A stretch of DNA of 40,293 nt, taken from the IMG/VR virus record IMGVR_UViG_3300032282_001107, positions 1 to 40,293 of that record. The stretch is one strand, 5' to 3'. The translations under genes and the position numbers were made by a program. The notes below the pieces were generated by a model. That model was not told the origin of the DNA. It made no database searches and was given only the letters and a program-made list of their open reading frames with translations. Below are positions 1,561-38,955 of the stretch, in pieces. This DNA is from a virus. Numbering within the stretch: position 1 is the stretch's first letter; each line of letters begins with the position of its first letter.

Positions 1561-1769
1561 GATGGATACTGAGCCACAGCATCACGAGTGGCCAAAGACT
1601 TGCCGTCAGCACTCAACGGCAATTTCTGGGGCTCACCCTGTTTGGGCATGTGAATATGGATCTGGATCCCGTTAGGCAGATTTACAGTCTGCTTGCCGTC
1701 CTCGTCATCCTTGAGACGCTTCCTGCGGAGTTCCAACCACTTCTTGAGGTCTTCGGCGTTCAACGGCAT
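1557..1769 (-). CDS. Small charged protein after portal (70 aa)
   Basis: The N-terminal 25 residues are highly charged and probably helical (EDLKKWLELRRKRLKDDEDG), followed by a short beta-like stretch. The start shares a base with the portal stop (TAATG), so translation is coupled to the portal. No family recognised. Position suggests a small head or assembly factor. Confidence 0.6.
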   Translation of the reverse strand: MPLNAEDLKKWLELRRKRLKDDEDGKQTVNLPNGIQIHIHMPKQGEPQKLPLSADGKSLATRDAVAQYPS

Positions 1770-3709: not shown

Positions 3710-4005
3710 TAGACCCATCGCTCCCCGACAGGTTCAGCCTTGACCCCGTCACGCTCGCATATTGCTTCCTGCTCTCGTTGACGCTCCCTGATGGTCGGGC
3801 CATGAAAGTCTTCACGGCCATAGGCGTACGTCAAGCCCACGGTCTCAATCTTGCACGCAAAGCAGCCCTCCATCAGGGAGGGATGCTGCTGCGCATGGAT
3901 AGCATCCTCGCAACGGGCGCATAGGCCCACTTCGCCGATACCTTCTCTGTGAATGCAAGTGTCCATTGCGTAATAGGACCACTTGTCCCCTAGATCATAG
4001 AACAC
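3709..4005 (-). CDS. Zinc-binding terminase-portal linker protein (98 aa)
   Basis: Small Cys- and His-rich protein with CIHREG, CARC and CFACK motifs, probably one or two zinc sites. The C-terminal segment REDFHGPTIRERQRE ending VGERWV is a pattern I associate with small proteins encoded beside terminase and portal in actinobacteriophages and environmental relatives; their function is unknown. GTG start, overlapping the terminase end by 11 bases, with GGGAGG eight bases upstream. An ATG at 3966 would give a shorter product but lacks a ribosome site. Confidence 0.7.
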   Translation of the reverse strand: MFYDLGDKWSYYAMDTCIHREGIGEVGLCARCEDAIHAQQHPSLMEGCFACKIETVGLTYAYGREDFHGPTIRERQREQEAICERDGVKAEPVGERWV

Positions 4006-5611
4006 TGGCTCTGCCTCCCACGTTGACTGCCCCCAGCGGTTGCTTGGGGTTTGATGATGCCTCTTTCAAAATTCTGTTCTTGAAGTAGTCGAATGTACCA
4101 TATACTTCGGTGGGCGGCGAGTACTCGGGCGCCTTGGCAAACCGCAGCATCTGGATTGCAATAGCCAGAGCCACCACACGATCATCAAACGGAGATCCCC
4201 CCATCCGACCACGCTCATCTCGCACATACGTCAACATCTCGCCCACCGTGGCTTTATCGTGGATCGTGAAACCCTGACGTATCGCCATACCCAACTCATC
4301 GATCATGAGCGGCTTGCTGGCTTTTGTGGTCAGCCAGCCGATCTTGGTCTGGAGCGACTGGTGCTTGGTCTTCCCATCCAGTTCACGCCTGATGTAAATC
4401 TTCGGGTAGTTCAAACGCTGTAACGCCTTGTTCGTGGTTAGACCATGGTTGTTGACCTCCACCGCAACCAGCGCGGTGTTGTACCGCCAACCGATCTTTG
4501 CGACCTCCTCCGCAAACAGGTCAGGGTCGATGTGGCCATGCCACTCGGCCACCTGCTCGCCCGTCTGCATGCATACAACCTGCACGCATGAGTAGTCACC
4601 GTGTTCCAAGCCTTCTGCAACGTCAGCGCCCAGCACATACGAATGGTCGATCTTCGGAGGAGACCACTCCATGTACGAGGTCTGGCTAGACATCTCCAAA
4701 AACGTTGGCGAGCGCAGAGTGCCCTGTACCTCGGTCTCCAAGTATCCGTATGCTGGATCCGTGGTCTCCAACGCGCGCAGCGCGTCAACATCGAACACAG
4801 GGTTACCTGACCTGATGAACGCTTCTTCAGGATTTTCGGGGTACTCCTGCGCCAACTGCCACGGCAGCATATTGGCTTTCTTGACATCATACCAATCATC
4901 ATCACGGTCGGTGTTAGCATTCCACGGGTAGAACAAGTGTTTGAACCCACTGTTTCCCGACACAGCCCTGTTCCAGAACGTATGAAAGAAGTTACCAGCA
5001 CCGTCAGCAGTGCTCAACCCGATGACACGGCCACCAACGTCGGTAACGGGCTCAATCGACGCCCACGCTTCTTCGGCATTCTCAAAGAAGGCCCACTCGT
5101 CCACAATGATCAACGACACCGCTGAACCACGAGCAGGGTCTTCCTTAGACGGCATGGACTCAATACCCGAACCGTTATCAAACGTCATCTTCATAACGTT
5201 CTTGTCCAGTCGATGTCCAATCGACTCATGTTCCTTCAACCATTCAGGCAGGCGTTTCCATGCGTAGTCCGCCTTGGCCAACAACTTCTGGGCCTCGCGC
5301 TCGTTGCGCGAGAGCATCACGATCACGTTGTCGGGCCAGAACATGCCCAACCACAGACAGTAGGCGGCAAACAGCGTAGAGTACCCGATCTGTCGGGCCT
5401 TCAGGATAATCACATACCGTTCATCCACCACGGTCTTGAGGGTCTCCAACTGTGCTTCCCGCAGAGGAAACAACATAGCACCGTGTTCAGGGTGCTGGAT
5501 GTATACCAACTCGGACAAGAATCTGACGCACGCGTCAAAGTCCTTCGGACTTTTGCCCCGCCAACGGCGGAACTTGGCCTCTTGGATAATCTCGGTCTTG
5601 GAGAAACGCAT
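3995..5611 (-). CDS. terL: Terminase large subunit
   Basis: DNA-packaging motor of 538 residues with ATPase and nuclease domains. The ATPase has a terminase-type Walker A (KARQIGYST, about residues 71-79) and Walker B with catalytic Glu (IIVDEW, about 168-173). The RNase H-like nuclease shows acidic positions in GADVAEG (about 330), AVEVNNHG (about 385) and FDDR (about 476). The upstream TTG at 5614 is less likely than ATG at 5611, which shares a base with the small-subunit stop (TGATG). It works with the portal and small subunit to fill the prohead. Confidence 0.95.
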   Translation of the reverse strand: MRFSKTEIIQEAKFRRWRGKSPKDFDACVRFLSELVYIQHPEHGAMLFPLREAQLETLKTVVDERYVIILKARQIGYSTLFAAYCLWLGMFWPDNVIVMLSRNEREAQKLLAKADYAWKRLPEWLKEHESIGHRLDKNVMKMTFDNGSGIESMPSKEDPARGSAVSLIIVDEWAFFENAEEAWASIEPVTDVGGRVIGLSTADGAGNFFHTFWNRAVSGNSGFKHLFYPWNANTDRDDDWYDVKKANMLPWQLAQEYPENPEEAFIRSGNPVFDVDALRALETTDPAYGYLETEVQGTLRSPTFLEMSSQTSYMEWSPPKIDHSYVLGADVAEGLEHGDYSCVQVVCMQTGEQVAEWHGHIDPDLFAEEVAKIGWRYNTALVAVEVNNHGLTTNKALQRLNYPKIYIRRELDGKTKHQSLQTKIGWLTTKASKPLMIDELGMAIRQGFTIHDKATVGEMLTYVRDERGRMGGSPFDDRVVALAIAIQMLRFAKAPEYSPPTEVYGTFDYFKNRILKEASSNPKQPLGAVNVGGRASVL

Positions 5612-6033
5612 CAATCCTCGCGAAGTACGGGCATGATTGCTTCCAGTTCTGCTGCGAGATCGGCATCGGAGAGACTGCCCACACGGGCATCTTCGATGAC
5701 GACTCGCTTCGGCTGGAGACGATCAACGTACTGAAGGTACAGGCTTGCCGCCTTGGTGTCGCCCGTCTTGGCCGCACGGTGCAGGGCATCCACGACATCC
5801 TGAATGCGGTCGGGACTGATGTTGAGTTCGGCAAGGCGCTGCTCGTACGCCTGCTTGAACGCTCGGTCGTTCTGCCAGCGATGGATGGTGGTCTCGGCGA
5901 CGCCGTTGTCTGCGGCCCATGCCTTCTTGGACCCCTTGCGCTCTGGGTCGCACAACCACTCAATGTAGTCGCGCTGCTTTGCAGAGAGAATGTCCCCGCG
6001 TTCTTTCATCCGATTGATCGACTCGTGTGCCAC
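5611..6033 (-). CDS. terS: Terminase small subunit
   Basis: Protein of 140 residues with an N-terminal helix-turn-helix (about residues 36-55, AWAADNGVAETTIHRWQNDR) and a helical C-terminal half suited to oligomerisation. It would recognise the packaging site and load TerL. The start is GTG with an excellent GGAGGAGG ribosome site seven bases upstream. It is the first gene of the leftward late block and is divergent from the early module, so its promoter should lie in the 6034-6080 region that holds a strong palindrome. Confidence 0.85.
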   Translation of the reverse strand: MAHESINRMKERGDILSAKQRDYIEWLCDPERKGSKKAWAADNGVAETTIHRWQNDRAFKQAYEQRLAELNISPDRIQDVVDALHRAAKTGDTKAASLYLQYVDRLQPKRVVIEDARVGSLSDADLAAELEAIMPVLRED

Positions 6034-6054
6034 TGTGGCCTCCTCCTGTCACTA

Positions 6055-6076
6055 ACAGGGGACAGTTGTCCCCTGT
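6055..6076. promoter_or_regulatory. 22-base palindrome, candidate operator
   Basis: Perfect 10-bp inverted repeat, arms ACAGGGGACA and TGTCCCCTGT separated by GT. It lies between the divergent starts of terS (6033, minus) and the 60-residue gene (6081, plus). A shorter copy of the same core, GGGACA-2 bases-TGTCCC, lies at 39027-39040 upstream of the scaffold gene. A dimeric regulator site is the simplest reading; an RNA hairpin is also possible. Confidence 0.55.
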
Positions 6077-6080
6077 AGAC

Positions 6081-6263
6081 ATGGAAACCGTACTCTGTCC
6101 CGTCTGCGCCCGCACCAACCAGCCCCGTTACGATGCTGGATCCGACTGGTGCATTGACTGCACCGACGAGATTCTTGGTGAACAAGCAAAGATGATGCTT
6201 GACAGTAAGCAAGAACGAGAGTATATTGATGGGACCAAGCCGCTACGCTTGGTAGAGCAGTAA
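6081..6263 (+). CDS. Small zinc-ribbon-like protein (60 aa)
   Basis: Begins METVLCPVCARTNQ and contains a second pair CIDC about 18 residues on, so it has two CxxC knuckles typical of a small zinc ribbon. The rest is charged and helical. The ATG is close to the palindrome at 6055-6076, so its expression may be directly controlled there. No strong ribosome site is seen, which lowers confidence. Function unknown. Confidence 0.55.
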   Translation: METVLCPVCARTNQPRYDAGSDWCIDCTDEILGEQAKMMLDSKQEREYIDGTKPLRLVEQ

Positions 6264-6290
6264 GAGATCCTCGTAAAAGCGGGATTAGCG

Positions 6291-6348
6291 CCCAGCCGCT
6301 AGGACTGGGTTCAGGCAAAGCCTGAGGAAGCCGAGGGATGAGACCCTC
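6291..6348 (+). other. Three adjacent hairpins, possible structured RNA
   Basis: Arms CCCAG/CTGGG (6291-6309), TCAGGC/GCCTGA with AAA loop (6311-6325) and GAGGG/CCCTC (6333-6348) lie almost end to end just after the 60-residue gene. No known RNA family was recognised. It could be a leader or small RNA. Confidence 0.3.
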
Positions 6349-6432
6349 CGCAAGGCGCTCGCACAATGTAGAGACTCGGTCCATGTGCCTTCCAAAGCCC
6401 TCTACCTCAGTCATGCCCAAAAGAAAGACAGC

Positions 6433-15717: not shown

Positions 15718-15801
15718 GCGGGTGTGGCGGAATTGGCAGACGCAGCGGATTCAAGATCCGCCGCTCGTGAGAGCGTGAGGGTTCAACCCCCTCCACCCGT
15801 A
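15718..15801 (+). tRNA. tRNA-Leu (anticodon CAA)
   Basis: Acceptor stem GCGGGTG / CACCCGT (first pair G-U), D-arm with GGCGGAATTGGCAGACGC, anticodon stem GCGGA / TCCGC with loop TTCAAGA (anticodon CAA at 15752-15754), a long class II variable arm near CGCTCGTGAGAGCG, T-arm GAGGG / CCCTC with loop TTCAACC, discriminator A at 15801. CCA is not encoded. It reads UUG codons. It lies seven bases after the exonuclease stop, inside the replication operon. Confidence 0.95.
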
Positions 15802-15849
15802 CGCTACATACAAAAGCGGCAGCGCCGCATCAACCAAGGAGAAAGACAC

Positions 15850-22216: not shown

Positions 22217-23041
22217 TTACGGGTATCGTACGGCCAGCACATGGGCAAGCACGCTACGGGTCTGAGGGCCGACGATACCGTCAACCTTGATATGGAAAAA
22301 CCGCTGAACATTCTTGACCGCGGTTTCGGTAGCGGGACCAAAGTCCCCATCCACCTTGATCTGCTGGGCAGCGCCAGCGATAAGCGCAAACTGAAGGTTA
22401 CGCACATCGTGACCCTTGGTGCCCTTAACCAGAATCGGGCCATTCACAAACGTGCGCGAGAGATCATGCGCAGCCTTATAGAGAGTGCTGAACACAGCAT
22501 CCTTCGGAGCAGACGGCGGCAGTGGAGGCGGAACCTGCCCCAACTTGGCAGCAGCACGCTTGATAATCTCTCCACGCTGCGCAACAATCTGAGGGCCTGG
22601 ACATCCATAATGTCCACCCCATGCTGCACCACCAGCACCATGATAAATGAGTCCTCGCCCGTTGCGAGAATCATCCGCCTGTGCCAGCGGAACATTGTAC
22701 GTCTGATGCAACCATGCAAGGATGGTCGCTGCCGACGTTACCTGAGCGTCGGTCAGCGCCTCCCCATGATCCCCATATCCCTCAAACTCAACGCCGATCC
22801 AATCGATGTTGCCGCTGCCCTGTGTCCAAGCGCGGTTGTTGAGGTCCACCAACTGAGCGATACGCCCGTCCTTGCCGCACACAAAATAGCAAGACACATT
22901 CGACGCAGGGTTGTTGCACCACGCGATTGTGCCTTCGTATGAGCCCACGGCAGTGTGCAAGACCATGCCGCGAGGCGGGCGGTTCACACCGCCCGCTGTG
23001 AAGTTACGGACGGGACGCCAGTCGGCGAAGGGGGCGCGCAT
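22217..23041 (-). CDS. Endolysin: N-acetylmuramoyl-L-alanine amidase with peptidoglycan-binding domain
   Basis: Cleaves the amide bond between muramic acid and the stem peptide of host peptidoglycan. Amidase_2 domain at about residues 15-165: MVLHTAVGS (His 29), the WIGVEFEGYG strand (81-90), IYHGAGGAAWGGHYGCPGP (His 134 or His 144, and Cys 147 as zinc ligands). A PG_binding_1 domain follows a Pro-rich linker: LVKGTKGHDVRNLQFAL and IKVDGDFGPATETAVKNVQR, IKVDGIVGPQTRSVL (about 204-264). Start TGATG-coupled to the upstream small gene. No signal peptide, so release needs a holin. Confidence 0.92.
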   Translation of the reverse strand: MRAPFADWRPVRNFTAGGVNRPPRGMVLHTAVGSYEGTIAWCNNPASNVSCYFVCGKDGRIAQLVDLNNRAWTQGSGNIDWIGVEFEGYGDHGEALTDAQVTSAATILAWLHQTYNVPLAQADDSRNGRGLIYHGAGGAAWGGHYGCPGPQIVAQRGEIIKRAAAKLGQVPPPLPPSAPKDAVFSTLYKAAHDLSRTFVNGPILVKGTKGHDVRNLQFALIAGAAQQIKVDGDFGPATETAVKNVQRFFHIKVDGIVGPQTRSVLAHVLAVRYP

Positions 23042-23614: not shown

Positions 23615-23938
23615 TTATTGGGTCTTGATGTCCCCTCGGGTCTCCACATGCTCAGCAAACATAGCAAGTTCGCCTCGCATGGTGTGGACCTGAGTATGGA
23701 TCTCATCTATCTTGTTTCTCAGAATTCCGTTGGCCACACGGGACTGGAACACCTCTTCTCTGAGTGACTCCACGATACTCTTGATAATCCCAACCTCAGT
23801 CACAAAGATGTCGTCCAATGACGTTTGCATGGTGTTAGCCTGCTTGGTGCGCTGGCTGGACTTATAAGCCAGCCAGCCCAAGATCATGGCTTGGGCTGCG
23901 CCAATACCTGCTATAGCAACATCAAGGTGGGTTACCAT
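23615..23938 (-). CDS. Membrane protein with coiled coil, lysis cassette (107 aa)
   Basis: N-terminal membrane helix (about residues 5-25, VAIAGIGAAQAMILGWLAY) followed by a long amphipathic helix or coiled coil (about 30-100). This layout fits a second holin or a spanin-like protein. The start shares a base with the stop of the giant gene (TAATG), with GGAG upstream. Its place beside the holin-like gene and endolysin supports a lysis role. Confidence 0.6.
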   Translation of the reverse strand: MVTHLDVAIAGIGAAQAMILGWLAYKSSQRTKQANTMQTSLDDIFVTEVGIIKSIVESLREEVFQSRVANGILRNKIDEIHTQVHTMRGELAMFAEHVETRGDIKTQ

Positions 23939-26900
23939 TACTTCTCCATGTACTGTCGGCGCATGAGTTCGTTCTCCTGATCGCGCGGCGTGTTAGTTCT
24001 GACTGGCAGACCCACATACGAGAGCCAGTTTGTGATTCTGCGATCCTTGTGCTTGCTTTCAGCGGGGATCATGCGCCTTCCTTGCCCGTAGAATGGCATC
24101 AACTGTTCCAGCAGGTAATCGGTCTTAGCCTTACCACCAATGAAATTAGCCACTGGTTTCATCGGGCCCTTGGTGCCGATATACCCTTCTGTGTTCTGGG
24201 TATCCTTGATCGGAATCCCCTTGAAGAATTGGCGAGAGAACGCCAATTCAGCAGGCAACTTCAACGGCACCGCCATCTGACTAAAGTACGGATCCAGCAA
24301 CGTCGGATAAGTGCCCAACTTCTTCGGATTCCAATTCTCGGCATCTGGCAGGGCCTGCCCCAGCGTCCGTGTCATCGGGAGGTCGGGGGTGAAGAACATC
24401 TGGTTCTTACCCGAGTGCATGGGCAACGGGATGCCGAACATCTCGTTCGTCAGGAACGAAGGCACAGGCTTTCCCGAGTCGGCCTTGTCCTCAAACGCAC
24501 GCTTGAACTGCTGGTAGTACCTGTACTTGTTTGGGGTCGTAGCCATCATCTCCATCTGGAGCGGGAAGTTATACCGAGTCCAAACGTAGAACGGGACGAT
24601 GCGCTTGACCGCATTAGTCTCAAAGTTGCTGAGGTTGGAGTAGTCGAAGTGGTACCGCGTAACATCGTCAAGGGCCTCTTGGAGGCCCGTGCCCTTGCTG
24701 AGACGGTCCCACATGAGCGCACCGCGCAAACGGAACTCCACATCGCCACCAAAGGCCGCGGAGGCCCTGAGGGGGCCGTAGCGGGGGCTGAACGGGTTCT
24801 TGGAGGGCTTGATGCTCGCAGCCACGCCGATCTCGTGGTGCGAGTACTGACCGCCACCCACGTTCTCGTAGATCACCTTCATCCATTCGGCTTCCTCGCC
24901 CTCCAACTTGCCAGCCTTGAAGAGTTGGATCTTCCTCATAAAACGCGATGTTGCGCCAAGTTCTACACCTGCAAGATAATTGTTGAAAATGCCACCCATG
25001 AGGTTGCGTACATGAAAACCTGGAGTAGTCAACTGCCAAGCCTTCACATACGTCATAAACTTATCATAGTAGCCCAAGAAGTTCCGCATGCCCTCGGGAG
25101 TGGACACGGTAGCCACTTGGTTCAACAACTCGGCAACCTGCGAGTCTGTCACAAGACCCTGCGACTTCTGGAGCCAGACGATACGTGAACCCTGATCCTC
25201 CGCCAATTTGGCGAGGTTGCGGACCGTCGTCAACTTGTTCAACTGCTTGAACGTCTTGGTCGGGTCGCTGGTCGGGTACCGCAGGAATCGCTCAGCACCA
25301 GCGTTTTCGGCCTGCGACTGCGCAGCAATCGCGGCCTCGGCGGTGGAATCTCCGCCAGCGGAGTCCACGGCAGCAATCACCCTGCGCTGCTTGTTCTGCA
25401 CCCAGTTGCGAGTATCACGAGCCGTGCGCCGCGCTTGGGGCGCAGCAGCAGGATCCTTGGCTTGCGCGTCCAGACGCGCCACCAACTCATCGTCATGCTG
25501 CCCATTCAAAATCGGAGCGGGGTCGGCCAGCATCTCAGGATCGGCAGCACCAGCCTCGGGAATCCCAAGAACGCGCGCACGATCCCTTGCCCCCGCTGGG
25601 GTGGATTCAAGGAAGTACGGCTTTTTGCCCGAGGCAACGCGTTGGGAATCAAGATTCAACAAGTGTTCGGCATAACGCTCACGACTAGCAAAAGGCTTGT
25701 TAGCGACGGGATCGATTTGCTTGTTCCAAATCTTACGATTGATGTAATCATCAATCGTTTCTGGCCCTATGCCAATTCGGTTTGATCCACCGAATGCACT
25801 GTGCTTCGGAGTGCCAGTCTTAAACTCATCCAGAGGATTAAACGGCTTAGAACTTTCGCCATAATACATATCGCCAAAAGGCGAAATATCCGCAAGTTCG
25901 GGCGGCGGGGTCACACGCACGGGGGCGGGCTGCGGCACCCCGATGCCATGCTTGGCCATAAGTGCTTCCACATCCGCCAGCGGCACCTGACCATTACCCG
26001 CCCCGAGGTTCGGAACCGACATCGGAAGATCCAGCGTACCCAACTCGGTCAGCGCAGCATCAACCTGTTCGATGCTGGAGGGCAACTTCCAGTCGCCCTT
26101 AGTCGGAACCAAGATCAGTCGGTTCTCGTGGTCCACCATCATCGTGCTGGTACCGTTGGCCTGCGCATCACGAAGATATGCACCATAGCGAGCAGACAGA
26201 CCCTTGAACTTGTCACGAGCCTGCTTGGCGAGCCCAGCGCCCATGACCGCCTCGCCGTTACTCTTCACGACCGTGTTGGTCGGAATGACAGCGTAATGAC
26301 CAGCAGCGTGATCATCCCAGATGTTCGCACTGGAACGGATCTTACCAACAGGAGCAGCCTTAGGTGCGACGACCTTCTCCACGGCATCCATGGTAGCAGC
26401 ATGCTCTTCCAGACGCTTCAACCCGCCTTCCAACCTTGCCCGATGGGAAGGAGTCAGATTGGGGCTCTGCAACTTGTTACGGATGTGCGCCAGCGTCTCG
26501 TCAGCGCGACCCTCCTTGATGCGCTGCTCCGCCAACTTAGAACCCTCATAGAATGCCTCCGCATCCGAAGCGGTACTCCCAATATCGGCAGGGACGACCT
26601 TACGGCTCGAACGCGCGCGGAACTCGCGTTCAATCTGAGTCATCCGCTTCTTGATGAGATTGCCAGCCTTACGGTGTTCATCGAAGCCCGCAGTATCGCC
26701 AGCCTCCTTGGCAGCCTTAGCCAAGTTGAACTCTTCGGTCATGCGACCGTTCCAGAACTCCTTGGCCTCGTTTGCATCCTTGAACGCAGGAGCACCGCCA
26801 CCGCCCAACACATCAGCCCAATCCGCTCCCTCCATCTGCCAATCGGGCTTCGCCTGATTCCGCAACCACGGCTGTGCATCAGCCATTGCTGCCATAGCAT

Positions 26901-29900
26901 CAACCACGGCCTGAGACTCTTCATCAGTGCCAGCAAACGCTCCAGACGGCAACTGTCGGATGCGATCCTCACCCCGCATCAGTGCATAACGATCCTTCAG
27001 AATGTTGTACTGTCCGACCAGCCGCTCCTGCGCTGCCTGCGAATCAGCAAGAACCTGTACCGCCATGGGCTTAGGACGTTCGCCCATGGCCTTCAACTCC
27101 TGTTTGAGCGCCTTGAACTCGCGTCCCTCCGCACTCGTGGTGTAGCCACGCTTGTCGCGGGCAGCAATGATCAGGCGCTTGCGCTGCTCCAGCCCAGCCC
27201 GCTTGGCGTCCCACTTAGCCTGTGCCTTTGTCTCGGTAACGTACGGAGAGGGGGGTGGCTGCAAAGGATCGGGCGCTCCAATAGGAGCGTCCTGAGGTCC
27301 GCCCATGGGGTGGGAGGGGGCCATGTACGAATCAATAGTAGAACGTACATCAAGTTCAGGGTTATGGATCGCCCGTACAATATTGTCCAAAGCGTCTTCC
27401 GAAATTGCAGTACGACGTCCAGCGGGTCCCTCAAGAACCTGCTGGATCATGACGCGAGTCAGTTCCTCGTCCTTGCCAGAAACAATCGCAGCATACAAAC
27501 GAGTCAATTGCTCCTCGCCGCGAAGGTACACCTCGGCAGGGGTGCCCATAGAGGGGTCAATGCTCTGGAGCGATTGCGTTTCCTTGATCTGGCTAACGGT
27601 GCGGTCGTAGAACGCCTTAGCGCGAGGACCAAGAAGGTCCGCAGCGATCTCGTGCGATAGCGGGAGCGGTTCGTCGGTGATGCGCTCAGCCTCGGCGCCA
27701 AGCCCGTGCAACTTGCCACGCAAGGTGTCGCTTGAAGGAACGCTGAATTCTGCAACGCCTTCAGCCCGCCGCACATCCTGCAATGTTCCAGCAAGATCGT
27801 ACATGGTGTCCAATTGCTTGATGGCTTCTTGGCCAGTTGCAAGATTTTGCGTCGCTTGCTTGTCCATCACTCGCTGGACACCAAGATACACATCGCCAAG
27901 ATTGCGCTGATGCTGCAAAGTGCGAGCGTTGATGGTCTTCTCATGCGAGAACAGAAGGTCCTTGCCAAAGAACGCTTCCTTGGAAACGGGTTGACCCTTC
28001 CATATCAGTGACTCGTCGCCCCGCTGCGCTTGCACAAGCGCATTACCGAGACCCTGCTCTCGGTTAGTCGCCTCGGCGTTCTCCAAGATGGACCCAGCAC
28101 CACCCTCTTCCCAAAGAGCGGTCTCAACGTGATCCCGTTCGTTACCCAGTTGATTCAACTTCTTGAGGATAGCGTCAGCTTCTTTATCGCTGCTGACAAC
28201 AAACGCCTTGTTCAGGCGTTCTACTTCGGCATCAATCTCATCGATGCGCTTCTGAAGTGCGGTAGGATCGGAAGTATCATAAACCCTTCTCCCCCTCTTC
28301 ACAGTCTTGGAAACAATATCACCTTCGACATCTGCCTGCTTGGGATCAAAGTTGTTGCCCCAAGTCTTAGACTGGTTGGGGTCAAACGTACCCGATTCAG
28401 AGAGGTCTTCGTACTTACCGATACCTTCCATGGGATTCTCGTCCCAAGCGATGGCTCGTCGCTCAGCGCGACCCATCTCTTCCAACTGGCGGTACATCTC
28501 GGACGAGTGCGGAGATGCATCGATCTCCTTCATCAAAGTATTCAGCGGGGCTTCAGTACCCTCGCTAACGCTTTTTGCAGTTGCCTCGTTGATAATATGC
28601 TGAACGCGAGTTGCTACAGCCTTGCCGTACTGTTGCTGCGCGTAGCGCGGCGTAATGTTGCCGCGCAACGCCTCAATCGCTGCGTCACCCGACTCGGACG
28701 ATGCCAACTGGGCCAACTTGTCAAGTTCGTCGTCGGTGGGGTTCGGAGGTAGCGCCTCGTCGATCCACTGGTCGGTTGCGGGATCAAAGTTGTTATGTGC
28801 GGGAATGCCTTCAGCAGGACCGTTGTAACCCTTGAACTTGGGCGACGACTTGTTAGCAAGAAGTGGGTCCACAGGCTCGGGCGGCGTCCACGGGTCAGGA
28901 GCAAAGCCTTCCCACGGCTCGCCGCGGCCACGGATAGCCGCAGCCCTTGCACTCATCTGCCCGCTCTCCACGCTGGCAGCAGCCGCAGCCATGCGCTGCT
29001 GCTCCAGCGCCTGCAACGCCCGACGCTCACCCTCGCTGGCCGTACCATCGTTCACCTTGGCGATCAGCGCACGGCGGGACATCTCCTCGTTCGGAGTCAT
29101 CTGCCGCGGAGGCATGCCTACATCGAACGAGTCTCCAAACGAGGACACATCCATGAGTTTAGGACCCACAACTCCAGACGGCGGACTAACAAAATCCGTG
29201 GGATCCTCGTAGACTGGCGGGGGCTCGTTCGGAATCGGACGTTCAAATGGCGGCTGGTCGTTCGGGATCGGACGACCACCCTTCCGTCCCATTACATTCT
29301 TGACAATATCATCGATACTTTCAGCACTATCAGTCGGATGGGCAATACCCCATCCGACCAACTCGTCCAGCATGGCCTTGCGGCCCAATTGCTGGTCAGC
29401 GTAACGCATGTAGTTTGAAGAAATCTTATACAGGTCAGTCTCGAACGCACCCTTGCCGTACAAGGTTTCAAGCAGGGCACGAGCCTCAGCCTGATTGCTC
29501 ACACCCAACTCTTGCAAGGTTGCACGATGCTTCATGAACGGAGCCTTGGGATCATGAGCAATTGTACCCTTGGGAACATCTTCAGCCGCAGCAAGCAAGG
29601 CTTCCTTGCCTTCAGCGGTAAACATGCGCGGAATGTATTGGCCATCAGGGATTTCCCCAACAGGAAGGCCAGCCTTCTTCAGCGCGCGATGCGCAGCGGC
29701 ATAGAAGTTTGCAACTTCACGCCCGCCCTCAACTGCGTCAGGCGTGCCCATCTCCACGGCCTTGAGAATCTCAGCCTCACGCCCCTTGATCGCTGGAGCA
29801 ACAGCCTTCATCCACAAAGTCGTAAGTTGCGAACCCACCTCAGCATCAGTGCCAGCAGCCTTGATCAACTTGTCAGCATGCTCGGGGAACAGTGTCCTAA

Positions 29901-31518
29901 TCGTGTCAGCATCAATCATGACCCCAGCGGCAGCCTTGGACCGCAGCATATTCATAGAACGCTTGACGCCAAGACCCGAGTACACTTCGTCGGGATTACC
30001 AGATCGAATCATGTTTCGGATCTCTTGCCCATACTCACCAGCGTACTTGGCCGAAACTTTGTCAGCAAACTTGCTCGCGCCCAAAGCGCGAGCAGGCTTG
30101 CTGAGGACACGCTGCAGGGGGTTTGTCACGTTCTTAGAGAGAAGCGGAATCAACTTCTCTTCAGGAACAACCCTACCTCCAGTCAAACCACCAACAACAC
30201 CCCTAGAAATACGACCAGTTCCAGGCACTCTCCATGCAAGACCACCAGCAACCTTCTCTTCAGGGAACAACCGCTGAATGTCCTGCTTCCTCAACACACG
30301 CTTGCCCTTGGAGATCACATCAGCAGACGCCCGCCTGACGTAAGATTCTGCCTCCTTGCGCGCCAACTTGCCAGCAGCCTGCTGAGCCACCTCGTCCGCA
30401 CCGCTAGCAGCCGCCTTGGCGATAGCCGCGGCGACTTCACGCTCAGCCAGCGGAACACCAGCCTCGGCAATACGAGTCGCCACCTGCGCACTCGTACCCG
30501 CCAACTTTGTTGTACCAGCCGTCAAGTACGTCATCGGGTCAAGACCAAAGTCACCAGCAGCACCAATAAATCGCTTGGCCCACTTGTCGTTCAGGATCGT
30601 ATCGTCATCCCAAGTGTGCTTGTCCAACCCTCGCTGGAGATACGTGCCGACACCAGTCTGCTTCCAGAAGTCCTTGCGGTTCTTCTCGTTCTCGTACGAG
30701 TTCAGAACACCAGCAATATCAAAACCCTTGCCCTTTAGCGCATCGGCTGTCTCGCCAACCACGCCAAGACCCACACCGCGACCCAGAGCGCCAACAGCCC
30801 CACCAATGTCGCCATCTTCCAACTCTTGCGCAACATCACTGACATGGGAAGCCACGTACGAGTAGGGCATGCGCATTCCCTTGAGCCCTATCTGAACGGC
30901 CTTGTTGCCCATGACCATTGCCCCAAACCGCTTCAACGGATTAGACTCTTCAGGATCCGTCCAACCATCGCCCGATTGGGATTTACCCGTAGGCTTGCTG
31001 TTGCCAGCACGCCCCGTCTGAGGCTCCTGTCGCTTCTCTTGCTGCCCGCCGCGACTCTGGCGCTGCGGGCGATAGCCACCACCGCCATCCATTCGGTCAA
31101 TGCGCTTAGCAGTCTCAAAATAGTTGACCGCGTCAGCCAACTTCTTGGCGGACTCCAGATCCCCAGCATCGCGCGCACGCAACGCATCATTCTTATAGCC
31201 CTCAATGACCCACGGATGGACCTTGGCAGCCTTGCCGCCAGCAACATCCATTGCATGCTTTTTGGCGTACTTGGCCGCAAGATGGTAATCATTCGGGTTC
31301 ATCCCCGCAGGATGACTTGACACCCACAATTCGTCAGTAACAAATGGAGCCTTCTTGCCACCCTCGCCACCTACGTAACGCATGTTAGCATCATAGGTAT
31401 CAGATTTGATACCAGACAATGCACCACTAATAGCACGACGGTTTTTCGATGCCTTGGCAGCATCGGTTGCCGTCTTGATCTGGTCACTCGTATACGTCTT
31501 TGTCTTTTTGCGAGCCAT
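23938..31518 (-). CDS. Giant virion or ejection protein with macrodomain (2526 aa)
   Basis: Single uninterrupted ORF of 7581 bases, about a fifth of the window. N-terminus basic with a Gly, Arg and Gln-rich segment (GGYRPQRQSRGGQQEKRQEP). Residues about 1725-1855 form a macrodomain: AVIPTNTVVKSNGEAVMGAG, LAKQARDKF, LILVPTKGDWKLPSS and SVPNLGAGNGQVPLADV, the ADP-ribose-binding signatures of the family. The C-terminal 400 residues carry TTPGFHVRNLMGGIFNNYLA and VPFYVWTRYNFPLQ, similar to large polyvalent-protein-associated regions. Acidic and Pro-rich linkers separate the parts. Probably packaged and ejected into the host; other domains were not identified. TAATG start. Confidence 0.8.
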   Translation of the reverse strand: MARKKTKTYTSDQIKTATDAAKASKNRRAISGALSGIKSDTYDANMRYVGGEGGKKAPFVTDELWVSSHPAGMNPNDYHLAAKYAKKHAMDVAGGKAAKVHPWVIEGYKNDALRARDAGDLESAKKLADAVNYFETAKRIDRMDGGGGYRPQRQSRGGQQEKRQEPQTGRAGNSKPTGKSQSGDGWTDPEESNPLKRFGAMVMGNKAVQIGLKGMRMPYSYVASHVSDVAQELEDGDIGGAVGALGRGVGLGVVGETADALKGKGFDIAGVLNSYENEKNRKDFWKQTGVGTYLQRGLDKHTWDDDTILNDKWAKRFIGAAGDFGLDPMTYLTAGTTKLAGTSAQVATRIAEAGVPLAEREVAAAIAKAAASGADEVAQQAAGKLARKEAESYVRRASADVISKGKRVLRKQDIQRLFPEEKVAGGLAWRVPGTGRISRGVVGGLTGGRVVPEEKLIPLLSKNVTNPLQRVLSKPARALGASKFADKVSAKYAGEYGQEIRNMIRSGNPDEVYSGLGVKRSMNMLRSKAAAGVMIDADTIRTLFPEHADKLIKAAGTDAEVGSQLTTLWMKAVAPAIKGREAEILKAVEMGTPDAVEGGREVANFYAAAHRALKKAGLPVGEIPDGQYIPRMFTAEGKEALLAAAEDVPKGTIAHDPKAPFMKHRATLQELGVSNQAEARALLETLYGKGAFETDLYKISSNYMRYADQQLGRKAMLDELVGWGIAHPTDSAESIDDIVKNVMGRKGGRPIPNDQPPFERPIPNEPPPVYEDPTDFVSPPSGVVGPKLMDVSSFGDSFDVGMPPRQMTPNEEMSRRALIAKVNDGTASEGERRALQALEQQRMAAAAASVESGQMSARAAAIRGRGEPWEGFAPDPWTPPEPVDPLLANKSSPKFKGYNGPAEGIPAHNNFDPATDQWIDEALPPNPTDDELDKLAQLASSESGDAAIEALRGNITPRYAQQQYGKAVATRVQHIINEATAKSVSEGTEAPLNTLMKEIDASPHSSEMYRQLEEMGRAERRAIAWDENPMEGIGKYEDLSESGTFDPNQSKTWGNNFDPKQADVEGDIVSKTVKRGRRVYDTSDPTALQKRIDEIDAEVERLNKAFVVSSDKEADAILKKLNQLGNERDHVETALWEEGGAGSILENAEATNREQGLGNALVQAQRGDESLIWKGQPVSKEAFFGKDLLFSHEKTINARTLQHQRNLGDVYLGVQRVMDKQATQNLATGQEAIKQLDTMYDLAGTLQDVRRAEGVAEFSVPSSDTLRGKLHGLGAEAERITDEPLPLSHEIAADLLGPRAKAFYDRTVSQIKETQSLQSIDPSMGTPAEVYLRGEEQLTRLYAAIVSGKDEELTRVMIQQVLEGPAGRRTAISEDALDNIVRAIHNPELDVRSTIDSYMAPSHPMGGPQDAPIGAPDPLQPPPSPYVTETKAQAKWDAKRAGLEQRKRLIIAARDKRGYTTSAEGREFKALKQELKAMGERPKPMAVQVLADSQAAQERLVGQYNILKDRYALMRGEDRIRQLPSGAFAGTDEESQAVVDAMAAMADAQPWLRNQAKPDWQMEGADWADVLGGGGAPAFKDANEAKEFWNGRMTEEFNLAKAAKEAGDTAGFDEHRKAGNLIKKRMTQIEREFRARSSRKVVPADIGSTASDAEAFYEGSKLAEQRIKEGRADETLAHIRNKLQSPNLTPSHRARLEGGLKRLEEHAATMDAVEKVVAPKAAPVGKIRSSANIWDDHAAGHYAVIPTNTVVKSNGEAVMGAGLAKQARDKFKGLSARYGAYLRDAQANGTSTMMVDHENRLILVPTKGDWKLPSSIEQVDAALTELGTLDLPMSVPNLGAGNGQVPLADVEALMAKHGIGVPQPAPVRVTPPPELADISPFGDMYYGESSKPFNPLDEFKTGTPKHSAFGGSNRIGIGPETIDDYINRKIWNKQIDPVANKPFASRERYAEHLLNLDSQRVASGKKPYFLESTPAGARDRARVLGIPEAGAADPEMLADPAPILNGQHDDELVARLDAQAKDPAAAPQARRTARDTRNWVQNKQRRVIAAVDSAGGDSTAEAAIAAQSQAENAGAERFLRYPTSDPTKTFKQLNKLTTVRNLAKLAEDQGSRIVWLQKSQGLVTDSQVAELLNQVATVSTPEGMRNFLGYYDKFMTYVKAWQLTTPGFHVRNLMGGIFNNYLAGVELGATSRFMRKIQLFKAGKLEGEEAEWMKVIYENVGGGQYSHHEIGVAASIKPSKNPFSPRYGPLRASAAFGGDVEFRLRGALMWDRLSKGTGLQEALDDVTRYHFDYSNLSNFETNAVKRIVPFYVWTRYNFPLQMEMMATTPNKYRYYQQFKRAFEDKADSGKPVPSFLTNEMFGIPLPMHSGKNQMFFTPDLPMTRTLGQALPDAENWNPKKLGTYPTLLDPYFSQMAVPLKLPAELAFSRQFFKGIPIKDTQNTEGYIGTKGPMKPVANFIGGKAKTDYLLEQLMPFYGQGRRMIPAESKHKDRRITNWLSYVGLPVRTNTPRDQENELMRRQYMEK

Positions 31519-33434: not shown

Positions 33435-34095
33435 GAGCAGCCTGCCTACGAACAGTCAACGCAAGGTTGATGTACTGCGCCGTAAATGCCGTGGAGAACG
33501 AAGCCCGCTGGGTAGCCAGCAAACGGGCCTTGACAATATACGGCGAGGCATACGCCTTCTTGGCAATCTTGATGATCGTCACAGAGCCATATGCCGCAGT
33601 TTCGGGGGCCACGAGCAAACACGCAGAGTTCTGACGAGCCGCAGTCTCCCACGTTGCCCCATTGTCAAACGAAACTTCCAACGTCGTAAGAATCGTAGAG
33701 TTCCCATTGCCGCCACTGTACTCCACGCTGGCCGTAGCCTCCAAGACCAAGTCAGAAGCAGTCGCATTGACAGGGATAGCCGTACCAGAATCGACGGTAG
33801 CAAGCGACGTAAAGGCTGGGGATGTCGCAACCGTAACGCTAGCAGGAGTGCTTGTGAACGTCATCTCGCCACTATACGCATTGCGCAAGGCGTCAACATA
33901 CGCCTTGCGCGTAAAATCATTGGCTGCTACGGGATCCGTGGATGGACCCGAAGGCACAGAGGTAAAAGCCAGCGAAGCATCCTTGAGGATGCAGTAGGTG
34001 TCAACGTACGACTTGATTGCGTCGAAATTGGAGTTGACATCCGCAGCCACAGCATCAGTATTGGCAGTGAATTCGATAGGACTGGGCATTGCCAT
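33427..34095 (-). CDS. Tail fibre-type structural protein (222 aa)
   Basis: N-terminus MAMPSPIEFTANTDAVAADV then NSNFDAIKSYVDT, a motif often found at the start of phage fibre or tail proteins that attach to the tail. A beta-rich remainder has a low-complexity T, S, A and V-rich stretch. TAATG coupling at 34095 sets the start. Together with the next gene it probably makes a fibre complex. Confidence 0.65.
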   Translation of the reverse strand: MAMPSPIEFTANTDAVAADVNSNFDAIKSYVDTYCILKDASLAFTSVPSGPSTDPVAANDFTRKAYVDALRNAYSGEMTFTSTPASVTVATSPAFTSLATVDSGTAIPVNATASDLVLEATASVEYSGGNGNSTILTTLEVSFDNGATWETAARQNSACLLVAPETAAYGSVTIIKIAKKAYASPYIVKARLLATQRASFSTAFTAQYINLALTVRRQAALA

Positions 34096-35765
34096 TAGGA
34101 TCTCACTCTCTTCGGGATGTACTTCCAAGTAATACTGTTCACGCCCCACTTGACCGTCGTGGTCGTAGGGCCAACAATCTTCAACGCCACGGCAGTCGCC
34201 CTACCAAGGCGACTGCCTCTCGTGATGCCCTGAGGCAAGCCCACGCCCAGCGCCCATTGCTTCTCGTCCCACTTGCCCACATCCCACACAAGAGCAGTGC
34301 CAGAGTTGGTGGTTGAGTTCAAGTAGAAAGTTCCGCCAACGTTCGTGTTGTCGTAGTCACGATACGTCGTACAAGTCAACTGATAATCTTCGTCCTTGCG
34401 GTACACAAACACAGGACGACGCCATGACTTGACGACCGCAGGGTTGCCCACATCGACCCACGGGGTCGTGTACTCAGTCAGGATTGGCTCGCCCGTGCCC
34501 GTCAGGTTGTCGGTGTCGCCCGTCTGGTGCAACGCAATAATCTTCGTACGTCCCTGCGAGTAGGAGCAGGTCAACCACTTGGGGTCGGTGGCAGGCGGAG
34601 CATAGTCCAGCATGACGCCAAGACCAGCACCAAGCGAAACGTCGCCAAACTGGTAGTGGGTCCACCCACCCTGCTTGTTGCGCGAGCGCAACGCTGGATC
34701 TAGAACATATACATCCGTATTGCCCGTGATCCCAACGTCGCAAGGCAGCGACACCCACAACCGTTGCTTCAACCAGCCCATTGTGATTGTGGCCCGCTGA
34801 GTGCGGTCCACAGTGCCGTCCTCTACAATCGGGCGCATCGGCTGGAACACATCATGGATCCCAGTACCATCATAAAAGTAGACGCCCTCGGGCCACGAGA
34901 AGAAATAGACCCCAGCCTCCGTCACAGCAATAGCCTGTTGTGAAACCGCACCAATACTGCGGGACAAGTTTACAACTTCAAATGTGTCGGCATCATAACC
35001 ACGAATGAGGAAAACTGAATTGCTTTTGAAGACGAGAAGCCCATCACGCCAAGAAGCAATGCCAGTAATAGAGTCGCCAGCGCCAGACTCAATATCAATG
35101 TAGTCGCTGCTGCGCCAATCTTCAGGAAACCCTTCATGAGACCACCTTACCCTGTTTGGATGGTTCTTCTCGGAACCACCACTCGTTTCATAAGTGTTTG
35201 CAACCCATACAAAGTCGCGGTGAGTCAAGATGAACTCAGCCTTAGGCATGCGCCCGTTGGTCCTCGTCCCAATGGTCTCAGACCACGACGGCGTCACGGA
35301 CGGATCCGTGAGCGCCGTACCCGTCGATCCGTTCCAGCGAATCGGTACCGCCGTACCCCCGCGAGTAATATAGCAAACCACATTTCCAAGCGAAGTGGGA
35401 TCACGAAACGACGCACCTTGCATCGTTCCCGTGTACGCAGTTGACCATGGAGCGGAGCCCGTACCCACTTGCGTAAACGCAGTGCCATCGTTTGTGGAAT
35501 ACGCAATACTTTGACCCTGTTGACAAATCAACTGACGAGTTGAACCATTGGGAGTGTAATGTCCCCACATATTCTTGATGGTCGAAGTCAGGGCCGTGCT
35601 GTTCAATCGCGCTGTGCCATCACGGCGCGCAAAGCCACCCAGCGGATCAAAATCGACATTCAAACATGAGGCGGTCTCGTTTGGACCCAACTGGAACGGG
35701 TCCGCGTTGAGGTTCAAACCACCTTGAAAGTCTGACATTGGCTGGGTCGAAATGCGCTGGGGCAT
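34095..35765 (-). CDS. Tail nozzle or tail tubular protein-like (556 aa)
   Basis: Begins MPQRISTQPMSDFQGGLNLN, then ADPFQLGPNETASCLNVDFD and PLGGFARRDG. This GGLN, LGPNE and RRDG opening is typical of podovirus nozzle or tail tubular proteins (T7 gp12 or P22 gp10 type) and related virion proteins. The rest is beta-propeller-like, with repeated W, G and Y motifs (RVRWSHEGFPEDWRSSDYID, WREGLLVF-type strands). It should cap the tail tube. The previous gene is the adaptor, consistent with connector-nozzle order. Confidence 0.75.
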   Translation of the reverse strand: MPQRISTQPMSDFQGGLNLNADPFQLGPNETASCLNVDFDPLGGFARRDGTARLNSTALTSTIKNMWGHYTPNGSTRQLICQQGQSIAYSTNDGTAFTQVGTGSAPWSTAYTGTMQGASFRDPTSLGNVVCYITRGGTAVPIRWNGSTGTALTDPSVTPSWSETIGTRTNGRMPKAEFILTHRDFVWVANTYETSGGSEKNHPNRVRWSHEGFPEDWRSSDYIDIESGAGDSITGIASWRDGLLVFKSNSVFLIRGYDADTFEVVNLSRSIGAVSQQAIAVTEAGVYFFSWPEGVYFYDGTGIHDVFQPMRPIVEDGTVDRTQRATITMGWLKQRLWVSLPCDVGITGNTDVYVLDPALRSRNKQGGWTHYQFGDVSLGAGLGVMLDYAPPATDPKWLTCSYSQGRTKIIALHQTGDTDNLTGTGEPILTEYTTPWVDVGNPAVVKSWRRPVFVYRKDEDYQLTCTTYRDYDNTNVGGTFYLNSTTNSGTALVWDVGKWDEKQWALGVGLPQGITRGSRLGRATAVALKIVGPTTTTVKWGVNSITWKYIPKRVRS

Positions 35766-37172: not shown

Positions 37173-38150
37173 CTAGGCCATCACGCCGAGGTAACGGCGG
37201 TTGCTCGTGACGAGGTTACCGTAGCAGAGGATCTGCGAGTAACGAGCGTCCTGACCGTGCGGCTTCTCAAACGGCGTGTTCTTGAGCCAAACGTCCGAGT
37301 GGACCTTCAACTTGAGGAACTGCGAGTTCAAGAAGTACATCTTGGCCTCGGTGAGGGCAGCGTCCCACATGACAGGGGCCGACTTGTAGAGAAGGTTCTC
37401 AAAGCCAGCATCCGCCGTCTTGGTCGACTGGTACCGCAACTGCGGCTGGAGCAAACCCTCGTAACGCTCCCACGCAGTCTGCGTGGTGAGGATGAAGTCG
37501 GGCTTGATCCGACCATTAGAGCAGGTGTTGTAGATGCTGGACATATCCGCAATCGTGTATGCATCCAGCGCGCTACCAGTAGCATCCTTGTACTGGTTCA
37601 CCCACCAACGGTTACCCGCAGCATTAGTGTTGCTGGAGGCAATACCACCAGGAGAGATGGTCTGCGAACCAGTTGCAGCAGCCTCAATGAACGACTTGAG
37701 ACCACTCCAGTTCTTGCTGGAGTTACCCGTACCATCACCGTACAGCATGGTGTTCATGCCATCGGTCAACGACATCTCGGCCTGATCAATCTTGGCCTTG
37801 AGGAGCGACATAACCGCAGACTCGCCGCGGTTCTTCGCCTCTTCGATACCGCTGATCGCGATAGAGACAGCGTACTGCTTCCAGTCGTACACGGCAGAAG
37901 TGATGCCGTCCTGCGGCGTGGTCAGAATGTTGTCGTAGCCAGCATACGAGCCGACAGTGTCGTTTGCCTCGTAGAGCAGCGGCTCCACGATCTGCTCGCC
38001 GCCGTTGACCTTCTCAACGTGGCCCGCTTCCTTCAACCAGTAAAGAAGCGTGACGTTCTTAAAGAGGTTGTCTTCAATCTTCGGGGTGTAGTTCTTGAGG
38101 GTGGTCGAAACCAGTGCATCCCAAGAAATAGTCTGCGAAACCGCAGCCAT
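37173..38150 (-). CDS. Major capsid protein
   Basis: 325-residue capsid protein following the scaffold gene. Features: N-terminal DALVSTTLKNYTPKIEDNLF, an A-domain-like centre with NTMLYGDGTGNSSKNWSGLK and a C-terminal segment DAALTEAKMYFLNSQFLKLK, followed by VHSDVWLKN. These motifs fit the HK97-type capsid family of tailed phages. Placement between scaffold and decoration protein agrees. AAGGAG upstream of the ATG, 34-base spacing from the scaffold stop. Confidence 0.9.
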   Translation of the reverse strand: MAAVSQTISWDALVSTTLKNYTPKIEDNLFKNVTLLYWLKEAGHVEKVNGGEQIVEPLLYEANDTVGSYAGYDNILTTPQDGITSAVYDWKQYAVSIAISGIEEAKNRGESAVMSLLKAKIDQAEMSLTDGMNTMLYGDGTGNSSKNWSGLKSFIEAAATGSQTISPGGIASSNTNAAGNRWWVNQYKDATGSALDAYTIADMSSIYNTCSNGRIKPDFILTTQTAWERYEGLLQPQLRYQSTKTADAGFENLLYKSAPVMWDAALTEAKMYFLNSQFLKLKVHSDVWLKNTPFEKPHGQDARYSQILCYGNLVTSNRRYLGVMA

Positions 38151-38184: not shown

Positions 38185-38955
38185 TTACTCGTAACCAAGT
38201 TCTTGCTTAGCAGCCGCCCATGCGTCCATGACAGACTCCACCATCTGAGTGGGAGCCGACACCGTGCCCTGCGCTCGCGATCCACCAGCAACGGGCGGGG
38301 CGCCTCGCTTTGCAGCGAGCGCCCGCTCGTTCGCCTCTCGGCGAGACTGCTCCGACTCGGTACGCTTGTTGTACAACAACAAGGCCGCTTCCAGATCGGG
38401 GATCTCCTGATCAATCGCAAACTCAAGCACGTTGCCCCAGTCAAACTCACCGTACCGCTGGCTCAAACCAGCAAGTTCGGTTTCGATCTCCTGCTGCATG
38501 CGCATGCTGCGCTGCTCTTCGATGAAGGCACGGTGCTCTCGCAACTCCATTTCGACTGGGTCAAGTTCCTCAAGCGACTGCTCTTGCATATCCAAACCGA
38601 GGTGTCGCTGCAACGCTTCCAGCGTTGCCTGCGGATCGGTCTCCAGCGCGTGCAGCAACTGTTCCGCCTGAGCCAACTCTTGCCGCTGGCGGGACAGGTC
38701 CTGAGTCTTCTTGGTGTAGTCGGACTGGCGAAGATAGCCTCGTTCCAGTTCATCCAGAGTCACCTGAGTGCCGTCTGACAGAGTGAGTCTGTCTCCTGCG
38801 CTCTCGGGTGCCTCTACAGTAGGTTCCGTGTCGCCAAAAGAGACCTTGTCCTCTCCGAACAGATTATCGCTGCCGAAATCGGGGGCCGTAGTAGCGGTGG
38901 TGTCAACTGCTGCGTTAGTGTCGGCGGTCAGAGTGCCGAGCGTTGTATCGTCCAT
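38185..38955 (-). CDS. Scaffolding protein
   Basis: Acidic, helical protein of 256 residues typical of capsid scaffolds: acidic N-terminus, then TLDELERGYLRQSDYTKKTQ and DLSRQRQELAQAEQLLHALE (about residues 65-105), a Gln and Glu-rich middle, and a basic Arg and Lys-rich C-terminus that would contact the capsid shell. Encoded directly before the major capsid protein. AAGGA ribosome site upstream. The 86-base region upstream holds a palindrome and a TATA-like element, a likely late promoter. Confidence 0.85.
   Translation of the reverse strand: MDDTTLGTLTADTNAAVDTTATTAPDFGSDNLFGEDKVSFGDTEPTVEAPESAGDRLTLSDGTQVTLDELERGYLRQSDYTKKTQDLSRQRQELAQAEQLLHALETDPQATLEALQRHLGLDMQEQSLEELDPVEMELREHRAFIEEQRSMRMQQEIETELAGLSQRYGEFDWGNVLEFAIDQEIPDLEAALLLYNKRTESEQSRREANERALAAKRGAPPVAGGSRAQGTVSAPTQMVESVMDAWAAAKQELGYE

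Follow-up and report, generated by a model that had tools for sequence, protein, structure and literature searches.

A giant late protein encoded by a podovirus-like phage contains a macrodomain of the DarG/TARG1 type. The protein is 2526 residues long, and residues ~1724–1862 (positions 25933–26349, minus strand) are confirmed as a macrodomain by profile matches, by comparison with PDB sequences, and by an AlphaFold2 model searched with Foldseek. The analyzed sequence, hereafter the window, is the complete IMG/VR record IMGVR_UViG_3300032282_001107 of 40,293 bp. Our best reading, to which we give about even odds, is that the giant brings an ADP-ribosyl hydrolase into the cell with the virion, directed against DNA ADP-ribosylation of the DarT kind or against ADP-ribose signals; packaging, ejection, catalysis, and substrate are all presumed in it.

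The macrodomain and its predicted active site

DarG, the antitoxin of the DarTG system and a DNA ADP-ribosyl glycohydrolase, is the best match to the domain in both profile and structure. The PADLOC profile of DarG gives E-values of 3e-12 for the segment, 1.5e-10 for the whole giant, and 5.9e-13 in a search of the whole record, and matches are also found to the NCBIfam DarG profile NF048014 (E 1.9e-10) and to PHROG_335, named 'phosphatase' (E 7.6e-10). Among PDB sequences, phmmer identifies the DarG macrodomain of M. tuberculosis (5m3i, E 1.6e-6). The Pfam Macro profile PF01661 falls below threshold on the giant's macrodomain, which is thus a divergent member. The AlphaFold2 model, built from 29 aligned sequences, has a mean pLDDT of 85.7 with a core above 90, and its last beta-strand is of low confidence (pLDDT <50 at model residues 149–158). 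The best Foldseek matches in the PDB are 5m3e, 5m3i, and 5m31 (DarG), 7omu (DarTG), and 4j5s (TARG1), with E-values of 4e-7 to 2e-4; the macrodomains from T. aquaticus and M. tuberculosis DarG rank first and TARG1 next. TM-scores are 0.59–0.67 to DarG and 0.52–0.67 over the best PDB matches. The initial annotation had read a macrodomain at residues ~1725–1855. The motifs it cited lie where it placed them, the predicted fold is the one it named, and the location is right, with boundaries better set at the residues given above.

The base composition of the domain (GC 0.585, GC3 0.669) is inside the giant gene's own spread, and recent import was rejected on this ground. Misassembly is argued against by the unbroken 7.6-kb frame and by the recurrence of the domain in the giant of a second phage, IMGVR_UViG_3300006641_000058 (locus L222, genome G018).

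The residues of T. aquaticus DarG that contact the ligand are N8, L9, T20, N22, V31, Q34, T79, G117, G119, N120, and G121, with K80 as the catalytic residue (equivalent to the main catalytic lysine of TARG1) and W83 at the position where thymine would stack (PMC5179494). The equivalents in the giant are, in the same order, N1732, I1733, P1746, N1748, L1763, Q1766, T1806, G1839, G1841, N1842, and G1843, with K1807 and W1810 corresponding to K80 and W83. Ten of these 13 ligand or catalytic positions are identical, two are conservative, and one is changed (T20 to P); a further difference from T. aquaticus DarG is at K29 (to A). The mapping of the N-terminal residues is based on a MAFFT alignment, and the strand end agrees with the AlphaFold2 model. 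This strand end, IPTNT (residues 1745–1749, 26272–26286), contains Asn1748, aligned with DarG N22. Beyond it lie a predicted ADP-ribose-binding loop, VMGAGLAKQ (residues 1758–1766, 26221–26247), the PTKGDW motif (residues 1805–1810) with the codon of Lys1807 at 26098–26100, and a second predicted ADP-ribose-binding loop, NLGAGNGQ (residues 1837–1844, 25987–26010), in which GAGNG is identical to residues 117–121 of T. aquaticus DarG. All are on the minus strand and together span 26286–25987. The catalytic lysine is invariant in 29 of 29 aligned macrodomains. Judged by alignment, the lysine and nearly all of the ADP-ribose contacts are retained, and binding and hydrolysis are predicted.

The catalytic lysine, W83, N22, and the GxGNG loop are features shared with DarG, but the match stops at position 132–134 of DarG profiles that are 329–338 positions long, and the DarT-binding C-terminal half is missing. 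The domain also has a 6-residue insertion before VMGxG and lies outside the clade of DarG-size proteins (355–384 aa) in the tree. The DarT profile PF14487, which is positive in two control genomes, has zero matches in the record at E<=1. With no C-terminal half of DarG in the giant and no DarT in the genome, identification of the giant as DarG was rejected. TARG1 (C6orf130) has the same fold and the same position of the catalytic lysine at 17% identity, whereas its partner Asp, D125, is not evident in the giant's GAGNG loop, which is DarG-like.

The nearest kin of the domain are phage macrodomains, which are mostly stand-alone. Stand-alone proteins of PHROG_335, such as those of Bacillus phage SP-15, Listeria phage LIS04, Pseudomonas phage SL2, and Moorella phage MTATph1, have the same domain with an invariant lysine, many of them with a KSNGE-type insertion; they are separate genes of about 140–290 aa, in contrast to a domain held inside a 2526-aa protein. 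Nearby macrodomain ORFs also occur as pairs (L005:1435-1887 with 1904-2356, and L120/L121:4769-5227 with 5938-6399), each within a single record: Burkholderia phage FLC9 and two IMG/VR records.

The giant protein in the late operon

By profile-based gene calls, the gene plan of the record is that of a podovirus-like phage, and the record is probably a near-complete genome of such a phage. The portal module (1769–3718) is near one end of the record and the scaffold module (38185–38955) near the other, from which we infer that the genome is near-complete and circularly permuted. TerL is at 3995–5614. The giant gene (23938–31518, 7.58 kb) runs from an ATG start to a TAA end with zero internal stops and sits in the late structural operon. 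Upstream of it is a gene for an internal virion or phage stabilization-type protein (34095–35765; PHROG_511, E 6e-9, and synteny), directly downstream a holin-like gene (23615–23938; a weak match, E 0.003, and synteny), and beyond that the endolysin (22217–23041; PHROG_1493, E 4e-32). The major capsid protein (37173–38150; PHROG_9953, E 4e-70) belongs to the same late module. All of these genes are on the minus strand. The early region holds a tRNA-Leu gene with anticodon CAA (15718–15802, plus strand).

The giant consists of an N-terminal framework (residues ~128–729, 29332–31137, minus strand) common to the giants of relatives L147 and L220, a variable middle (residues ~730–2090), and a conserved, helical C-terminal framework (residues 2091–2526, 23941–25248, minus strand). 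Single-protein searches with the macrodomain or the C-terminus did not find close relatives, and alignment-based scans were needed. In such scans the C-terminal framework is also present in two partly overlapping sets of 80 viral loci each; both scans and other loci together give 158 framework ORFs, 94 of them at least 1400 aa long. Among the giants, conservation is confined to the N- and C-terminal regions and the middles are unalignable; the giant is a fast-diverging protein of podovirus-like phages. Two similar stretches occur in the window giant, LMDVSSFGDSFDVG (residues 788–801, 29116–29157, minus strand) and ELADISPFGDMYYG (residues 1874–1887, 25858–25899, minus strand), the latter just C-terminal to the macrodomain; the pair could be repeated linker elements.

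The model of the C-terminal framework (pLDDT 79) has 31 matches in BFVD at E<=1e-3. Three of the best four (E 1.5e-15 to 6e-13) carry the annotation large polyvalent protein associated domain, and weaker matches are named ART-PolyVal-like, RelA/SpoT, LT_GEWL, and Zeta toxin. The LPD38 profile PF18857 has zero matches in the record at E<=10, as in the control genomes, so the kinship with the LPD38 family is one of fold only. Compared with the large polyvalent proteins described in the main text of PMC5512222, the giant is likewise a large late protein with a variable middle and a fold match (E 1.5e-15), but it misses the LPD38 profile and shows one recognizable enzymatic domain; in Pfam, PHROG, and NCBIfam searches this is the macrodomain. 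The same main text proposes that proteins of the polyvalent class are injected early. From late-operon position, fold kinship, and that proposal, it is a reasonable inference that the giant is a virion or ejection protein of the large polyvalent kind, presumably packaged and injected. The initial annotation had called it a virion protein that is likely ejected, and the late operon and the polyvalent-type C-terminal fold agree with this, while the unmatched LPD38 profile does not.

Encoding in a late operon would also suit a macrodomain that acts in late infection or assembly, for example by reversing ADP-ribosylation of virion proteins or of phage DNA before packaging. Such a role appears very unlikely, as the genome has zero matches to ADP-ribosyltransferase toxin-type or DarT profiles and the giant is similar to large polyvalent-type proteins, which have been proposed to be injected as a rule.

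Relatives with and without the domain

Macrodomains are present in only 2 of the 158 framework ORFs, those of the window and of L222, so the framework must be able to do its own work without the domain. Four phages have a common gene plan with the giant at the same place. A close relative (G014, locus L147), with TerL 81% and endolysin 78% identical, has a giant of 2890 aa that lacks the macrodomain and aligns in the framework only (37% N-terminal, 41% C-terminal). Another (G007, locus L140), with TerL at 62% and capsid at 60%, has a giant of 1953 aa, also without macrodomain. L222 is more distant (TerL 50%, capsid 45% identical), and its 3255-aa giant carries a macrodomain at residues 1165–1286 that is 47% identical to that of the window, with the C-terminal framework at 31%. 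The distance from the end of the macrodomain to the C-terminal framework match is ~280 residues in the window giant and ~1530 in L222. Of the genes compared, the giant is one of those replaced most rapidly, its middle being unalignable to that of L147 in spite of the well-kept TerL and endolysin.

In a tree of 110 rows, the window and L222 macrodomains are sisters (support 100/78), and together with one stand-alone phage protein they form a three-row clade (support 99/95) apart from DarG-size proteins. Among 134 viral loci with the macrodomain family, a protein of more than 400 aa occurs only in L222, the window being the second case. An alignment-based scan of genome contigs gave one stand-alone macrodomain match, on a cyanobacterial contig. 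The macrodomain may be ancestral and have been lost at least twice, or may have moved between giants. Either history fits cargo that is gained and lost, a behavior suggested by its absence from the two nearer relatives, G014 and G007.

The L222 domain keeps the lysine, the tryptophan, and the GxGNG loop though about half of its residues differ from the window domain. The ADP-ribose-binding loops, whose loss in homologues the initial annotation would have counted against its reading, are kept in the window and in the sole homologue of the same architecture. Absence from the nearer relatives, a last beta-strand that is not recognizable, and the replacement of T20 by P and of K29 by A relative to T. 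aquaticus DarG are what a decayed or purely structural remnant of recombination, now without enzymatic role, might look like. We regard this as improbable, since the ADP-ribose loops and catalytic lysine are kept in both giants despite that divergence and the reading frame is intact.

A cargo-domain scan of the giants of 24 relatives found only helix-hairpin-helix motifs, in two giants. These are probably L051 (2987 aa) and L059 (2901 aa), with the motif in the C-terminal part (PF12836, best E 7e-25); both ORFs extend beyond the framework, and the motif is a possible DNA-binding cargo. Directly after the L222 macrodomain, residues ~1310–1440 (L222:6212-6604) form a Rossmann-looking stretch, VLYLHGSR...GRDLDLKILNDEKPDLVVVL...ARKAGIPVLTHGP, that is SLOG-like by eye and unsupported by Pfam, PDB, or phage searches or by the YAcAr profile. 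In the L220 giant (L220:8602-14460, minus strand), a near relative without macrodomain, residues ~1067–1115 are ART-like by eye (VTLYRGE...GVHFYASEKYANNFAG..GIVYKVDVP), a motif unsupported by Pfam, PHROGs, PDB, phage and plasmid tblastn, or the PF03496 profile. Tentatively, and with more doubt than confidence, the giants of this phage group could hold an exchangeable slot, occupied by a macrodomain in some and by other cargo elsewhere (possibly ART-like or SLOG-like), that disarms defenses based on ADP-ribosylation of DNA or on ADP-ribose signals at entry.

Proposed substrate and role at infection

In the mechanism we propose, the conserved N- and C-terminal framework of the giant would hold a fast-changing middle with host-directed cargo. 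The TARG1/DarG-type macrodomain, catalytic lysine included, would be part of this cargo in the present phage. The giant would be packaged and enter the cell together with the DNA, where the macrodomain would use Lys1807 to strip ADP-ribose from its substrate. This substrate would most likely be phage DNA ADP-ribosylated by a DarT-type toxin, or alternatively a low-molecular ADP-ribose derivative serving as alarm signal, and the defense would be neutralized before early gene expression. The initial annotation had likewise suggested that the domain could counter host ADP-ribosylation defenses, which is our best guess at its role. The isolated DarG macrodomain is sufficient as antitoxin to DarT (PMC5179494), and DNA adducts made by DarT are favored as substrate on account of the DarG kinship.

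In place of a DNA or protein adduct, an injected macrodomain might bind or cleave a small ADP-ribose derivative, such as His-ADPR, other Thoeris signals, or ADPr-1''-phosphate from RNA repair. A 2022 survey argues that low-molecular ADP-ribose derivatives are the predominant target of phage Macro domains, with DNA adducts allowed, and describes these domains as often combined with SLOG (PMC9503650), as the stretch that is SLOG-like by eye adjoins the macrodomain in L222. Macro domains of Thoeris effectors also bind such signals (PMC11204291). However, DarG is the closest profile and structure, the catalytic lysine and the proposed thymine-stacking tryptophan are kept, and the SLOG reading is unsupported in Pfam, PDB, phages, and the YAcAr profile. 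A small-molecule target is a real but lesser possibility, and we place a DNA or macromolecular substrate slightly ahead of it.

Genes for Macro, NADAR, and Nudix domains have been described in the neighborhood of morphogenesis genes, with products that are probably packaged, viral Macro outside RNA-virus polyproteins being 'typically standalone' (PMC9503650). ARTs are the commonest modifying domain in polyvalent proteins according to the main text of Iyer et al. 2017 (PMC5512222), and 'Macro' is absent from that main text. The doubt expressed in the initial annotation that the arrangement was known holds for these sources. A macrodomain inside a polyvalent protein, as predicted here, was not found reported within the open papers searched.

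DarTG, Thoeris, and other ADP-ribose-based defenses act fast. AdfB of phage ICP1 is a 77-aa anti-DarT factor that is made early after infection and binds DarT (PMC11481870); it and, as proposed, the giant are both phage counters to DarT, but AdfB has no hydrolase domain. If the proposed role of the giant is true, a virion-borne hydrolase would be pre-emptive, in contrast to AdfB, the described factor, which is made post-infection. The two macrodomain giants, set against same-plan relatives without the macrodomain, form a natural panel for asking whether ejection proteins carry swappable anti-defense enzymes.
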